Source: Mycobacterium stomatepiae (GTDB lineage: Bacteria; Actinomycetota; Actinomycetes; Mycobacteriales; Mycobacteriaceae). Taken from it: 64,000 nt of DNA. This document shows positions 8,366 to 53,278 of the stretch, piece by piece; position 1 is the first letter of the stretch, and each line of letters opens with the position of its first letter. The stretch is from positions 434,001-498,000 of the forward strand of contig NZ_AP022587.1 of assembly GCF_010731715.1 (NCBI RefSeq), given 5' to 3'. The position numbers and the translations under genes are program-made. The notes beneath the pieces are model-generated. The model saw nothing but the letters and a program-made list of their open reading frames with translations, was not told the DNA's origin and made no database searches.

Positions 8366-8379
8366 GGGCCATTGGGCCC
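8366..8379. promoter_or_regulatory. Candidate DosR box upstream of the Rv2628 homolog
   Basis: GGGCCATTGGGCCC matches 10 of 14 positions of the DosR consensus GGGACTWWAGTCCC and is a near-perfect palindrome. A weaker related element, GTGGCCAAAGGCCT (8390-8403), lies 24 bp further on. The start of the Rv2628 homolog is about 150 bp downstream. Rv2628 is a DosR-regulon gene in Mtb, which supports the assignment. Confidence 0.5.
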
Positions 8380-8529
8380 GCGGAGCATGGTGGCCAAAGG
8401 CCTTTGCCGGTAGGACTTCGGCGTGGTGAGAAGTGCGACCGAAGCACTGCATGCCGGTTGCGTTTGCCTCTAACTCGCCGAACCGGAGAAATGGTCAGAT
8501 CGACTATCTAGCCGACCGAGGGGGCTGCC

Positions 8530-8853
8530 ATGAGGTTCACAAAGCATATGGCGCGGTTCGAGACGACGTATCGCATTACCGATCGCTTGCATGACGGCCG
8601 ATCAGTTGATGTGCGTGGCGACGAGATCGCAACCATAGTCACGGGGTGGCTCGGGGAACTGGGTGCCTCCAGTCCCCTTGTCGAGGATTTGGCACGAGCG
8701 GCGTGCCTCGGCGACTGGGCTTCCGCCTACGGCGTCGGCAACCAATTGTCCGTTGAAGTGACCCTTGCGAGTGCCGCCTGGGCGTTGCCAGCGACCGCAG
8801 ACAGGGCTGTGGCACAAAGTCCCTCGGACTGGGGTCGTCGTCCCCTCGTGTGA
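8530..8853 (+). CDS. Rv2628-family dormancy protein
   Basis: A 107-aa cytoplasmic protein of unknown function. Residues ~12-80 align closely, from memory, with Mtb Rv2628, a strongly hypoxia-induced DosR-regulon antigen: 'YRITDRLHDGRS' against YQVTDRSHDGRT, 'WLGELGASSPL' against WLSELGTQSPL, and 'LGDWASAYGVGNQLSVEV' against IGDWPAAYAIGEHLSVEI. It lacks the N-terminal extension annotated for Rv2628 and has a ~25-residue C-terminal tail not shared with it. ATG 8530 follows GAGGGGG by 7 nt. The gene is followed by an Acg-type nitroreductase whose own candidate DosR box lies inside this gene's 3' end. Confidence 0.85.
   Translation: MRFTKHMARFETTYRITDRLHDGRSVDVRGDEIATIVTGWLGELGASSPLVEDLARAACLGDWASAYGVGNQLSVEVTLASAAWALPATADRAVAQSPSDWGRRPLV
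8810..8823. promoter_or_regulatory. Candidate DosR box upstream of acg-type gene
   Basis: TGGCACAAAGTCCC matches 10/14 of the DosR consensus. A weaker partner GGGTCGTCGTCCCC (8832-8845, 8/14) starts 22 bp further, the spacing usual for paired DosR sites. Both lie inside the 3' end of the Rv2628-like gene and about 70-85 bp before the nitroreductase start at 8907. Confidence 0.4.
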
Positions 8854-8906
8854 CAGCTGCAAACCCGGGATGGTTTACATCAGAATTTGTGGAAGGGACC
8901 AAAGCC

Positions 8907-9902
8907 GTGAACGCGCATTTTCCCGATGCGGGCACAATCCGCACCGTACTGGCTCTGGCATCTCGAGCCCCCTCCGTCCATAACACCCAACCCTGGCGGT
9001 GGTTGGTGGGTTCACAAAGTCTGGACCTCCACGCCGATGCGGATCGGCAACTGCCCAACACCGACCCGGACGGGCGTGATTTGATCTTGAGTTGCGGTGC
9101 CGCGCTAAATCATTGCGTCGTCGCTTTCGCGGCGGTTGGGTGGCACGCCAAAGTGTCCCGTCTGCCGAACCCCGCTGATCCCAACCACCTTGCCGCGATC
9201 GAACTCTCGCGGCGCTCGGCTGACGCATCGGATATTGCACTCGCCGCGGCGATTCCGCGGCGGCGAACTGACCGCCGCCATTTCAGCTCCTGGCCGGTGC
9301 CGGTGGCCGACATTGCACAGATGGCGGCGCGGTCCGCGCGTTACGGGGTAACGCTTTGTCAGGTCGAGGACACCGACGAGCTGAACAGGATTGTGGCGCA
9401 GTCCGTGCTGGACCACATGAACCATGACTATCTCGCCGAGCTCACCGCGTGGAGTGGCCGTTACGGTTCGACAGCCGGCGTCCCGGCTCGCAACACACCA
9501 AAATCCGACCGCGAGGCCAAGATTCCGGGGCGGTACTTTGCCGGTCCGGTGCTCGCCGAGCCGCCTGGGTCATCTCCCGACGAAGACAATGCCGTGGTCC
9601 TCGCGCTCGGAACACGTGCCGACGACCGGTTGGCCCGGCTGCGTGCGGGCGAGGCGACCAGCGTGGTTCTGCTCACCGCCACATCGATGGGCTTGGCCAG
9701 CTGCCCGGTCACCGAGCCGCTGGAGATTCCCGAAACCCGTGCGGCGGTCCACTCCGAAATCTTCGGGGGCATGAGCTATCCGCAGATGCTGCTGCGCGTG
9801 GGGTGGGCGCCGATCAACGCGGATCCGTTGCCGTCGACACCACGGCGCGAACTCACCGATTTCGTCGCGTGGACGTCGGACCTCGGGCGCCTCGGCGATT
9901 AG
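8907..9902 (+). CDS. Acg/Rv2032-type nitroreductase-fold dormancy protein
   Basis: A 331-aa protein of the Acg family: tandem nitroreductase-like halves that bind FMN in Acg, with lid features that shield the flavin. Signatures are 'ASRAPSVHNTQPWRW' near the start, 'SCGAALNHC', 'RRRTDRRHF' in the middle and 'ATSMGLASCPVTE' plus 'RVGWAP' near the end. GTG 8907 was chosen because GGAAGGG ends 9 nt upstream and the protein then begins just ahead of the conserved 'RAPS' block; an in-frame GTG at 8850 would add 19 unconserved residues. It is the most diverged of the three Acg-type genes here. Acg in Mtb is DosR-controlled and has no proven nitroreductase activity. Confidence 0.88.
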   Translation: MNAHFPDAGTIRTVLALASRAPSVHNTQPWRWLVGSQSLDLHADADRQLPNTDPDGRDLILSCGAALNHCVVAFAAVGWHAKVSRLPNPADPNHLAAIELSRRSADASDIALAAAIPRRRTDRRHFSSWPVPVADIAQMAARSARYGVTLCQVEDTDELNRIVAQSVLDHMNHDYLAELTAWSGRYGSTAGVPARNTPKSDREAKIPGRYFAGPVLAEPPGSSPDEDNAVVLALGTRADDRLARLRAGEATSVVLLTATSMGLASCPVTEPLEIPETRAAVHSEIFGGMSYPQMLLRVGWAPINADPLPSTPRRELTDFVAWTSDLGRLGD

Positions 9903-9942
9903 ATCGCCGATTCCAAATAACTTGGTGCGCAGGAGAGTTGCG

Positions 9943-52081: not shown

Positions 52082-52125
52082 CGGGCTGACGGTGAATACC
52101 TTTGGCTCGCTCGCCCGAGGCTGAG

Positions 52126-52161
52126 CCGCCGAAAGTCCTTCGCCCTAACGACTTCAGGCCC
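52126..52161. promoter_or_regulatory. Paired candidate DosR boxes downstream of tgs1
   Basis: CCGCCGAAAGTCCT (52126-52139, 9/14) and ACGACTTCAGGCCC (52148-52161, 10/14) start 22 bp apart, matching the pair spacing seen elsewhere. They are ~80-115 bp before an ATG at 52243 with a strong ribosome site and ~335 bp before fabG3. Confidence 0.5.
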
Positions 52162-52242
52162 TATCAGTGGGTGCGGCGAGTTGCTGGGATAAGAGCTGTG
52201 AACGCGGCACTTCGGCCAACCGCGCTAGAGGAGTAGCCAATA

Positions 52243-52788
52243 ATGGCTCACGTTAACGGTGCTAAAGTCATTGTCCTGCAGTCACATCCGATGTGGATCG
52301 CGGCCCAGCAGCATGCGCGAGAGCGAAGCGATGCGCCGTCATCCGTCATTTGCTCGGCAGAAAACTTCCTAAAGGCTCCGCTTCGGGGTGATTCCCGACG
52401 CGGTATCGACTCGCGACGATTTCCGCGTCATACATGCACGCATATATGTATGGTGACGTTCGAGTCAACGACGCACCACACGACAGGAGAGTGCATTGGC
52501 AGAACGATTGGCGGGAAAGGTCGCACTGATCAGTGGGGGTGCGCGGGGGATGGGCGCCTCGCACGTGCGGATGATGGTGGCCGAGGGAGCCAACGTCGTG
52601 TTCGGCGACATCCTCGACGACGAAGGCAAGGCGGTGGCCGCAGAGGTCGGCGACGCGGCCCGCTACCTGCACCTCGACGTGACGAAGCCCGACGACTGGG
52701 ATGCGGCGGTGGCCACCGCGCTCAGCGAGTTCGGCGGTGTCGACGTGCTGGTGAACAATGCGGGCATCATCAACATCGGTACCTTTGA
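52243..52788 (+). CDS. Possible small or decayed gene downstream of paired DosR boxes
   Basis: ATG 52243 follows AGAGGAG by 9-10 nt, one of the best ribosome sites in the region. The first ~40 codons ('MAHVNGAKVIVLQSHPMWIA', 'ERSDAPSSVICSAE') look protein-like but I recognise no family. The frame has no stop before 52788, where it overlaps fabG3 in another frame; that part is arginine-rich and looks noncoding. It could be a truncated gene that lost its stop, or the leader of fabG3. The region between 52082 and 52495 otherwise holds only the DosR boxes. Confidence 0.3.
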   Translation: MAHVNGAKVIVLQSHPMWIAAQQHARERSDAPSSVICSAENFLKAPLRGDSRRGIDSRRFPRHTCTHICMVTFESTTHHTTGECIGRTIGGKGRTDQWGCAGDGRLARADDGGRGSQRRVRRHPRRRRQGGGRRGRRRGPLPAPRRDEARRLGCGGGHRAQRVRRCRRAGEQCGHHQHRYL

Positions 52789-53278
52789 GGACTACGCGCT
52801 CGCGGAGTGGCAGCGGATCCTCGACATCAATTTGACCGGTGTGTTTCTCGGCATTCGCGCGGTGGTGAAGCCGATGAAGGAAGCCGGACGCGGTTCGATC
52901 ATCAACATCTCCTCGATCGAAGGAATGGCCGGCACCATCGCCTGCCACGGTTACACCGCAACGAAATTCGCGGTGCGGGGCCTGACCAAGTCGGCTGCGC
53001 TGGAGCTGGGTCCCAGCGGAATCCGGGTCAACTCGATCCATCCCGGCCTGATCAAGACCCCGATGACCGATTGGGTTCCCGACGACATCTTCCAGACCGC
53101 GCTGGGCCGGGCCGCCGAACCTCGGGAGGTCTCCAGCCTGGTGATCTACCTGGCCAGCGACGAGTCCAGCTATTCCACCGGGTCGGAGTTCGTCGTCGAC
53201 GGCGGTTGCACCGCGGGCCTGGGCCACAAGGACTTCTCCGCCATCGAGACCAACGCGCAACCGGAGTGGGTTACGTAG
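52496..53278 (+). CDS. fabG3: 3-alpha(20-beta)-hydroxysteroid dehydrogenase-like SDR (FabG3, Rv2002 homolog)
   Basis: A 260-aa SDR almost collinear with Mtb FabG3/Rv2002: 'GKVALISGGARGMGASHVR', 'VVFGDILDDEGKAVAAE', 'NNAGIINIGTFEDYAL', 'YTATKFAVRGLTKSAALELG' and the C-terminal 'QPEWVT'. Rv2002 is an NADH-dependent 20-beta-hydroxysteroid dehydrogenase. TTG 52496 follows ACAGGAGA by ~7 nt. Rv2002-Rv2007c cluster in Mtb, so its presence at the island edge near Rv2004c/2005c/2006/2007c homologs is a rearranged form of that locus. Its last 8 bp overlap the mmpL reading frame on the other strand. Confidence 0.92.
   Translation: MAERLAGKVALISGGARGMGASHVRMMVAEGANVVFGDILDDEGKAVAAEVGDAARYLHLDVTKPDDWDAAVATALSEFGGVDVLVNNAGIINIGTFEDYALAEWQRILDINLTGVFLGIRAVVKPMKEAGRGSIINISSIEGMAGTIACHGYTATKFAVRGLTKSAALELGPSGIRVNSIHPGLIKTPMTDWVPDDIFQTALGRAAEPREVSSLVIYLASDESSYSTGSEFVVDGGCTAGLGHKDFSAIETNAQPEWVT

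Follow-up and report, generated by a model that had tools for sequence, protein, structure and literature searches.

Mycobacterium stomatepiae holds its low-oxygen survival genes in one block, a DosR-type island that lies within the 64,000-nucleotide stretch of DNA analysed here (hereafter the window), corresponding to bases 434001-498000 of its one-contig, 6,210,822-base chromosome (NZ_AP022587.1). Gene calling and annotation place the island at approximately 7.2-52.1 kb of the window, with around 40 genes, among them those encoding the regulator DevR and the sensor kinase DevS. The block is probably a low-oxygen survival regulon under the control of DevR, brought together at a single locus and working as follows. 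A DevS kinase of a separate lineage, with a heme-type GAF domain, would sense falling oxygen (or NO or CO) and phosphorylate DevR, which would bind palindromic boxes in front of most units. The protective output would comprise universal stress proteins (USPs), Hsp20 and nitroreductases. A second pyruvate dehydrogenase (PDH), together with an acetate-CoA ligase and an acyl carrier protein (ACP) of its own, would supply acetyl units, an NAD(P)-type hydrogenase would handle surplus reductant, phosphoenolpyruvate (PEP) synthase, PfkB and OtsB would manage sugar phosphate and trehalose, and a pair of ketoacyl synthase III (KAS-III) proteins would, with the wax ester/triacylglycerol (TAG) synthase TGS1, put acyl carbon into storage lipid. 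We infer the signal, the phosphotransfer, the metabolic roles and the co-transcription of the units from the genes and sites described below.

The initial annotation of this DNA held that more than twenty homologues of M. tuberculosis DosR-regulon genes lie together here with their regulators, and this is borne out by our count of 21: three Acg-type nitroreductases, an Rv1733c-family protein, a Rip3-like protease, six USPs, a PNPOx protein, Hsp20, an Rv2030c-like protein, PfkB, DevR, DevS, a ferredoxin, an OtsB1-like protein, an Rv2004c-like protein and TGS1. With the exception of the Rv1733c family, the Rv labels used for island genes are ones that we take to apply, the M. tuberculosis genome standing outside the comparison. 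The clustering is not due to chance, since nine of the 14 Usp-domain matches in the whole genome fall within the island, the Rv1733c-family gene is the only copy in the genome and DosR-like boxes are in excess over control DNA.

Boxes were scored with a symmetric matrix that started from nine candidate sites and was then refined with 596 upstream regions taken from the window and from related genomes. Sites scoring at least 12 bits number 16 in the 44-kb island, none in 20 kb of window flank and 11 in 760 kb of control DNA from the same genome (38 stretches), giving densities of 0.364 and 0.0145 per kb for island and control, a difference of around 25-fold. When the island is divided into 17 transcription units (our own division, by common strand and short gaps), no unit is more than 400 bases from a site of at least 11.9 bits. 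DosR-type palindromes are therefore found ahead of the island's genes above the genome background, for some units by way of assumed co-transcription. As the matrix was trained in part on island regions, independent checks matter. For four of five published OsdR sites of Streptomyces coelicolor, scored with the same matrix, no more than 16 of 759,430 control positions score as high or higher; for the fifth, 65 do. Two simpler ways of scoring were discarded in favour of the trained matrix and preservation between species. A loose pattern search was useless (222 matches against 298 expected) and a consensus score improved on it only slightly (32 against 30 at a low cut-off, 12 against 6 at a middle one and 1 against 1.2 at a high one).

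A second check comes from the acs-pdhABC-acp cassette (21771-26965, reverse strand), which by its sequence appears to belong to the regulon. Two boxes lie in the gap between acs and the neighbouring nitroreductase gene acg3 (27025-27142; 13.7 bits at 27025 and 12.2 bits at 27125, by matrix and alignment). Both are kept in 16/16 aligned genomes, our own included, while the stretch separating them diverges. Where the cassette stands outside the island setting, in sequence that played no part in training, a box of at least 9 bits precedes acs in 12/12 cases and one of at least 13 bits in 11/12, set against a background for boxes of at least 9 bits of 7.5% in shuffled sequences and 48/1672 in 450-base windows of the same genome. 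These two sets, 16 in the alignment and 12 elsewhere, make up the 28 of 54 PdhA-containing genomes in which the region before acs was inspected. The PDH operon is found at the same junction in 16 genomes, including our own, but is missing there in G014, G146 and G126 (G and L numbers denote our genomes and loci). G157 retains a remnant only (acp and E2), and in G004 the cassette lies some 1 Mb away, still adjoining acg3, the Rv2030c-like gene and pfkB. The initial annotation took dispersal of the same proteins in related genomes, without co-induction, as the finding that would speak against an island. Dispersal does occur, with modules standing apart from devRS in G004, G065 and G135, but the boxes are kept where tested (G004 and G065).

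The same annotation singled out the cassette, the KAS-III pair, a lysyltransferase-like protein and a degenerate DevR as additions without M. tuberculosis DosR counterparts. All four are present and deserve the attention, but the list leaves unnamed the hydrogenase (10567-15068) and PEP synthase (46384-48678), which, with the cassette and the KAS-III pair, take the island beyond the M. tuberculosis regulon. Nor are the additions peculiar to this genome. Among 148 Mycobacterium genomes, our own included, and at strict E cut-offs (1e-200 for DevS, 1e-110 for PdhA and 1e-120 for KAS-IIIa), the island-type PdhA is found in 54 and KAS-IIIa in 52, and both also occur on plasmids. The two genes pdhA and kas3a are found together in 40 genomes, alone in 14 and 12, respectively, and in 82 neither is seen (Fisher p 8e-14, uncorrected for kinship). 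In 30 of the 40 the distance between them is at most 60 kb, and 13 of those 30 lack an island-type DevS. DevS itself is matched in 42 of the 148 genomes, in 33 of them (our own included) at 68-100% identity. PdhA is present in 21 of these 33 (within 60 kb of DevS in 16) and KAS-IIIa in 23 (within 60 kb in 18).

The initial annotation listed devS (34499-36211, plus strand) with devR as the regulators of the island. For devS that picture changes. The protein, the only DevS in the genome at E 1e-20, has the domain make-up of DosS and DosT, with two GAF domains, HisKA_3 and an HATPase domain, and its heme-type GAF-A retains the proximal histidine (heme binding is thus predicted), yet it groups with neither of them and lies outside their clade. 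The GAF-A domain is 54% identical to that of DosT and 49% to that of DosS (M. tuberculosis domains from the PDB), whereas the other group of kinases (51 rows, mostly from named devR loci of mycobacteria, Nocardia, Rhodococcus and others) shows 57-86% identity to DosS and 60-84% to DosT. In a tree of 104 rows (one of 105 was dropped for length or X, and the full M. tuberculosis kinases stand outside it), the two sets are split at support 100. The 41 island-type rows form one clade (support 99), and 12 further rows (56-63% identical) fall on the island side. Proximal histidine, distal tyrosine and the phospho-acceptor (DLH) histidine are retained in 41/41 rows of the island clade. Judged on these residues and the tree, the island DevS is a predicted heme-GAF kinase of a lineage separate from DosS and DosT, which changes the meaning of DosR/S/T being conserved in mycobacteria. 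No plasmid DevS more than 60% identical to it was found among 290 plasmid records with a match.

The partner regulator DevR (33661-34317, plus strand; Response_reg and GerE, that is, a receiver with a LuxR-type helix-turn-helix (HTH)) has no second match in the genome at E 1e-50 and is preceded by a box of 12.7 bits at 33454. DevRs of the island type fall into one clade (99/92; 40 rows, of which 38 adjoin an island-type DevS) that is nested among other mycobacterial DevRs, without a split like that of DevS. The regulator is therefore ordinary and it is the sensor that differs. Both trees contain some identical rows twice (for example G074/L007, G090/L004, G145/L030 and G168/L034). In M. genavense (L002), an island-type DevR is seen without an adjoining DevS match, and devR and ppsA are only 1.4 kb apart.

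The survival kit looks partly mobile, because its modules also sit on plasmids of unrelated bacteria. From 643 plasmid records with any PdhA match, 10 cassette loci and four controls were inspected. The order acs-pdhA-pdhB-pdhC-acp is found in 10/10 cassette loci (by annotation or tblastn), with pdhA and pdhB forming one reading frame on the Leisingera and Ciceribacter plasmids. In nine of the 10 the stretch also encodes at least one further USP, Hsp20, CBS protein, PEP synthase, hydrogenase or Rv2030c-like pair; in Ciceribacter no such stress or low-oxygen gene is seen among the ten neighbours scanned. None of the four controls, plasmid loci with an E1 alpha of lower identity, shows acs plus acp, a USP, Hsp20 or a PEP synthase among its annotated neighbours, in gene tables that are incomplete. 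Streptomyces and proteobacterial plasmids are among the carriers of the cassette, and most have stress or hydrogenase genes close to it. On Burkholderia savannae pMSMB0266 (L269, typed as conjugative), for example, the operon lies around 9 kb from an NAD(P)-type hydrogenase with hypAFCDE, and Hsp20 is present too. In Paraburkholderia phymatum (L276), it stands beside a Tn7 TnsA-like gene and two CBS proteins, with the Rv2030c-like halves as separate genes.

The fullest plasmid counterpart is on the linear, 398-kb pDK1 of Rhodococcus sp. DK17, where a dormancy-type island occupies 72 kb (212-284 kb; L260 and L262). It comprises USPs, Hsp20, CBS proteins, kas3a (83%), kas3b, ppsA, pfkB, an Rv2004c-like ATPase, GNAT and otsB, together with acsA-pdhA-pdhB-pdhC-acp in the same order, DevR (76%), a hydrogenase and wax/TAG synthases. 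Its GAF kinase is 43% identical to the island DevS and by identity belongs to the other DevS lineage. Boxes of at least 12 bits number 21 in these 72 kb against one in a 48-kb stretch elsewhere on the plasmid, and in a 46-kb part 14/15 boxes are intergenic, the intergenic share of that part being 30%. A plasmid of R. qingshengii TG-1 carries a set similar to that of pDK1, and the BH4 and WAY2 plasmids carry parts of it in the stretches inspected. On pRWAY01, the KAS-III pair lies between two wax ester/TAG synthase genes, comparable to the TGS1 gene that adjoins the pair in the island. Upstream of the plasmid PDH operons of R. qingshengii, Streptomyces and Paraburkholderia, sites of 9.1-12.5 bits are seen.

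We infer from the trees and the replicons that modules have moved between replicons. A broader reading, to which we give even chances, is that the island is one of a class of mobile low-oxygen kits in Actinomycetota and Pseudomonadota, whose modules (acs-pdhABC-acp, the NAD(P)-type hydrogenase, PEP synthase/PfkB, USP/Hsp20 and the KAS-III pair with wax/TAG synthase) cross phyla on plasmids and are wired to the local oxygen regulator; in mycobacteria, DevR would have stayed and the sensor kinase been exchanged. The plasmid copies hint at a route by which such a trait might pass between soil and water bacteria, and they provide harmless hosts for its study. A different history, vertical inheritance within mycobacteria with many losses and shuffles, the plasmid copies being too remote to inform on movement, is possible but unlikely. 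In its favour, the 31 mycobacterial rows of the PdhA tree form one group (99/99), the island-type DevS proteins form one clade, as do their DevR partners, and the lower G+C of the island is within the range of the genome. In the same PdhA tree, however, the two rows from Rhodococcus plasmids cluster with three from Burkholderiales plasmids (99/95), apart from Mycobacterium, a grouping that is a sign of transfer between phyla. The tree is small (44 rows, some with long branches, the fourth control, Streptomyces chartreusis, standing outside it). Further points against purely vertical descent are that two of the 10 cassette plasmids are typed as conjugative and that the right flank of the window is common to only three of the other genomes compared.

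Base composition was also considered as a sign of horizontal origin and is not decisive, the G+C of the island falling inside the genome's own range (63.1% against 66.4 +/- 1.8% in 38 control stretches, with 10-kb control chunks reaching down to 60.6%). The GC3 of the island core genes is 0.73 compared with 0.83 for the flanks, and is below that of the flanks in our own genome and three sisters, the genomes in which flanks were measured. That of the acs-pdhABC-acp operon is 0.81, nearer to the flanks than to the island core.

The cassette itself comprises genes for an ACP (21771-22019; PF00550; 16 rows found, our own included), E2 (pdhC, 22026-23217, by domain matches), E1 beta and E1 alpha (pdhB and pdhA, 23218-25163; TIGR03182, 443 bits against a cut-off of 394, and NF006667, 399 against 321) and an acetate-CoA ligase (acs, 25160-26965; NF003313, 891 bits against 729), all on the minus strand. 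The main PDH of this genome, AceE (1509 bits), is encoded elsewhere, so that the island PDH is a second one. It is improbable, in our estimation, that the operon specifies an acetoin or another 2-oxoacid dehydrogenase. E1 alpha is similar among these families, and acetoin clusters can contain an acetate-CoA ligase gene. Both E1 subunits nevertheless exceed the PDH family cut-offs, and the best solved relative of E1 alpha is human PDH E1 alpha (227 bits), ahead of branched-chain enzymes. In addition, Thermus acoA is 45.7% identical, compared with 57-69% for the 25 best plasmid records (of cassette type where looked at). Taken as a pyruvate dehydrogenase, the operon adds a second, probably hypoxia-linked enzyme of this kind to around one-third of the Mycobacterium genomes examined (54/148) and opens the way to testing directly what obligate aerobes do with pyruvate and reductant when oxygen is absent.

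Several observations weigh against the DevR-controlled survival regulon and its plasmid relatives as drawn above. In this genome the lipoyl part of E2 is in a different frame from the E3-binding and catalytic parts, so that the three domains are not in one protein. E2 is in a single frame in 14 of 16 relatives and is split also in G113 and G116; the split here could mean either an inactive PDH in this strain or an error of assembly. In M. smegmatis a putative pyruvate dehydrogenase, which may or may not be this cassette, fell at low oxygen (PMC2799521). Hypoxic induction of the island in M. stomatepiae is itself a prediction. The hydrogenase, Rv2004c-like, lpgS and pdhA/B/C genes are tied to boxes only through assumed co-transcription: a box is found before hyhB in 0/19 genomes, before the Rv2004c-like gene in 0/18, before lpgS in just 2/12 and before pdhA/B/C in none. 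Only 7/33 genomes have a counterpart of the window's devR box, and the island's own scores are partly circular, because the matrix was seeded from the window. The 36 kb left of the window also contain two sites of at least 12 bits, one of them ahead of a two-domain USP gene. Three Rhodococcus plasmids besides pDK1 are poor in boxes (2 in 42 kb, 3 in 74 kb and 2 in 46 kb), and of five further plasmid PDH operons examined, the Azospirillum and Burkholderia ones show no upstream site of at least 9 bits. Finally, passages of PMC11876180 place dosR and dosS of M. avium outside the list of genes that RNA-seq showed as induced, while RT-qPCR gave an increase of around 4-fold for dosR.

The plainest alternative, an ordinary clustered DosR regulon like msmeg_3926-3955 of M. 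smegmatis in which the additions are passengers with no role in hypoxia, agrees with the hydrogenase and PEP synthase clusters already in print for that species (part of PMC2799521) and with the varying gene content of close relatives (G146 is without cassette and KAS-IIIa and G126 without cassette, at the cut-offs used), but the retention of the cassette boxes in 16/16 genomes and in 12/12 other settings and the co-occurrence (40 genomes) and linkage of pdhA and kas3a (30/40, 13 without island-type DevS) make it improbable.

Clustering as such was already known, as the initial annotation rightly stated. According to the section of PMC2799521 concerned, 2.5% oxygen raises expression of the msmeg_3926-3955 cluster, hydrogenase genes included, and like the island this cluster lies near devRS with hydrogenase and PEP synthase genes; it differs in that the exceptions listed there include neither acs-pdhABC-acp nor the KAS-III pair.

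The M. tuberculosis regulon shares with the island DevR, the box motif, USPs, Hsp20, Acg nitroreductases, the Rv1733c family, PfkB, TGS1 and the ferredoxin, but is spread over several loci where the island is one block, and has the other kinase lineage.

A closer parallel may be M. avium. Its dosR-dosS genes are MAV_4109-4108, numbered next to a PNPOx gene (MAV_4110) and a nitroreductase gene (MAV_4111), both induced under microaerophilic conditions and lower in a dosRS mutant. There dosS is needed, and its loss is not made good by another kinase (passages of PMC11876180). The order MAV_4111-4110-4109-4108 equals that of acg1-pnpox-devR-devS at the M. colombiense and M. vulneris loci (L010 and L011), where DevS is island-type. 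MAV_4108 is therefore probably island-type too, going by gene order and kinship and not by its sequence, and the order suggests that the island is of the M. avium DosRS type. M. avium differs in what would be a reduced island, with most regulon genes elsewhere. In M. kansasii a single gene, Mkan_22410, is tabled as both DosS and DosT (PMC5322544, in part), and in its relatives M. gastri, M. ostraviense, M. persicum and M. attenuatum the devR-linked kinase is of the island lineage. Three loci from relatives of M. kansasii (L004, L006 and L007) have acs-pdh genes beside the island-type DevS.

Further afield, the OsdRK system of S. coelicolor has a related binding motif and USPs, a nitroreductase and pyruvate phosphate dikinase around the regulator, but belongs to another genus, and a PDH cassette goes unmentioned in the relevant passages of PMC5069765. 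The lxa locus of Burkholderia cenocepacia is likewise a low-oxygen locus, important for anoxic survival and present only in some strains (PMC3759415, in part). The literature searched contained no paper recognisable as dealing with a DosR-linked acs-pdhABC-acp operon or the island kinase lineage, no search having been aimed at the Rhodococcus plasmids.

The KAS-III genes (48701-50696, plus strand) encode an active-type protein, Kas3a, and a degenerate one, Kas3b. Among the 10 aligned rows of each (18 kas3a and 15 kas3b rows were found and at most the first 10 per family aligned), Kas3a keeps the Cys-His-Asn triad and Kas3b the cysteine without the histidine and asparagine. A degenerate subunit beside an active one suggests a heteromer, as in PqsBC, a comparison that we assume to be apt; PqsC chains are among the matches obtained. 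An OleA identity was tried and set aside: chains that we take to be OleA score 75 bits and other KAS-III chains better, at 91 bits. The TGS1-like wax ester/TAG synthase follows at 50696-52081 (plus strand; TIGR02946, 412 bits against a cut-off of 310).

The hydrogenase (10567-15068, plus strand) has four subunits of the NAD(P)-dependent [NiFe] sulfhydrogenase type and a maturation protease (HycI, PF01750); its NCBIfam matches lie below the equivalog cut-offs (278 against 700 bits for the best alpha-subunit model). To its left, in order, are a small conserved protein, h8530, syntenic in relatives and with no Pfam or NCBIfam match (8530-8853), preceded by boxes at 8364 (10.9 bits) and 8388 (12.3 bits; 8364-8405 together by matrix scan, at least 8 bits in 12/13 genomes), acg1 (8850-9902; PF00881) and the Rv1733c-family gene (9943-10518; NF050032, 130 bits against a cut-off of 80), all on the plus strand.

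To the right of the hydrogenase, beyond a DUF302 gene, lies the degenerate DevR (15939-16652, plus strand; box at 15881, 15.7 bits), whose presence the initial annotation had correctly noted. It has a receiver (PF00072) without a recognisable HTH (no GerE), keeping the phospho-aspartate with the acidic pair and HTH residues changed. Among the relatives' stretches compared, it occurs elsewhere only in G157 and G075, and against G157 it evolves under purifying selection (dN 0.24; dS about 2, near saturation). A dominant-negative role or one as a phosphate sink is possible.

There follow, as one unit by its gaps, a Rip3-like protease, USP1 and a lysylphosphatidylglycerol (LPG)-synthase-like transferase (16823-20208, plus strand; box at 16699, 15.6 bits). 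The last of these (lpgS, 18847-20208; PF09924, 183 bits) matches LysX and the MprF synthase domain far below their cut-offs. PNPOx and acg2 (20205-21701, minus strand, by family matches; box at 21736, 16.6 bits) precede the cassette. Beyond it are acg3 (27191-28186, plus strand), which resembles acg1 and acg2, an F420H2-quinone-reductase-like gene (minus strand; PF04075) and USP2 (plus strand; Usp) at 28183-29615 with boxes at 28669 (17.9 bits) and 28730 (13.4 bits), and the Hsp20, Rv2030c-like and PfkB genes (29913-33415, plus strand, by sequence and family matches), whose box of 15.0 bits (29830-29847) is present in 9/9 genomes (shuffles 20%).

After devR and devS come GNAT, USP3 and ferredoxin genes (plus strand) and USP4 (minus strand) at 36312-39069, with boxes at 36266, 37808 and 39145; an OtsB1-like trehalose phosphatase/GH65 protein (39195-42788, minus strand; TIGR00685, 189 bits against 68; box at 42864, 17.4 bits); and USP5, USP6, the Rv2004c-like kinase and PEP synthase (42933-48678, plus strand; box at 43832, 16.0 bits), ahead of the KAS-III pair and TGS1.

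The initial annotation placed the block at 8366-53278. The block itself stands, with different edges. A gene for a KefB-like cation/proton antiporter (7177-8343, plus strand, named from sequence reading) stands before the island, syntenic in many relatives, and the left edge is therefore nearer 7177. At the other end, a short-chain dehydrogenase/reductase (SDR) gene (52496-53278) has a flank-like GC3 of 0.85 and is matched at 90% or more, together with mmpL-mmpS, only in G146, G126 and G157 among 41 groups of relatives. Its box is missing from G146 and G126, and the one in G157 lies at a different distance. The SDR (52.5-53.3 kb) was accordingly rejected as a regulon member, and the right edge lies at around 52.1 kb. 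Beyond the island, a box of 17.5 bits lies before a two-domain USP gene some 27 kb to the left of the window (L216:8351), and control stretches of the same genome contain strong DosR-like boxes at L198:18860 (19.1 bits) and L205:10893 (16.2 bits).

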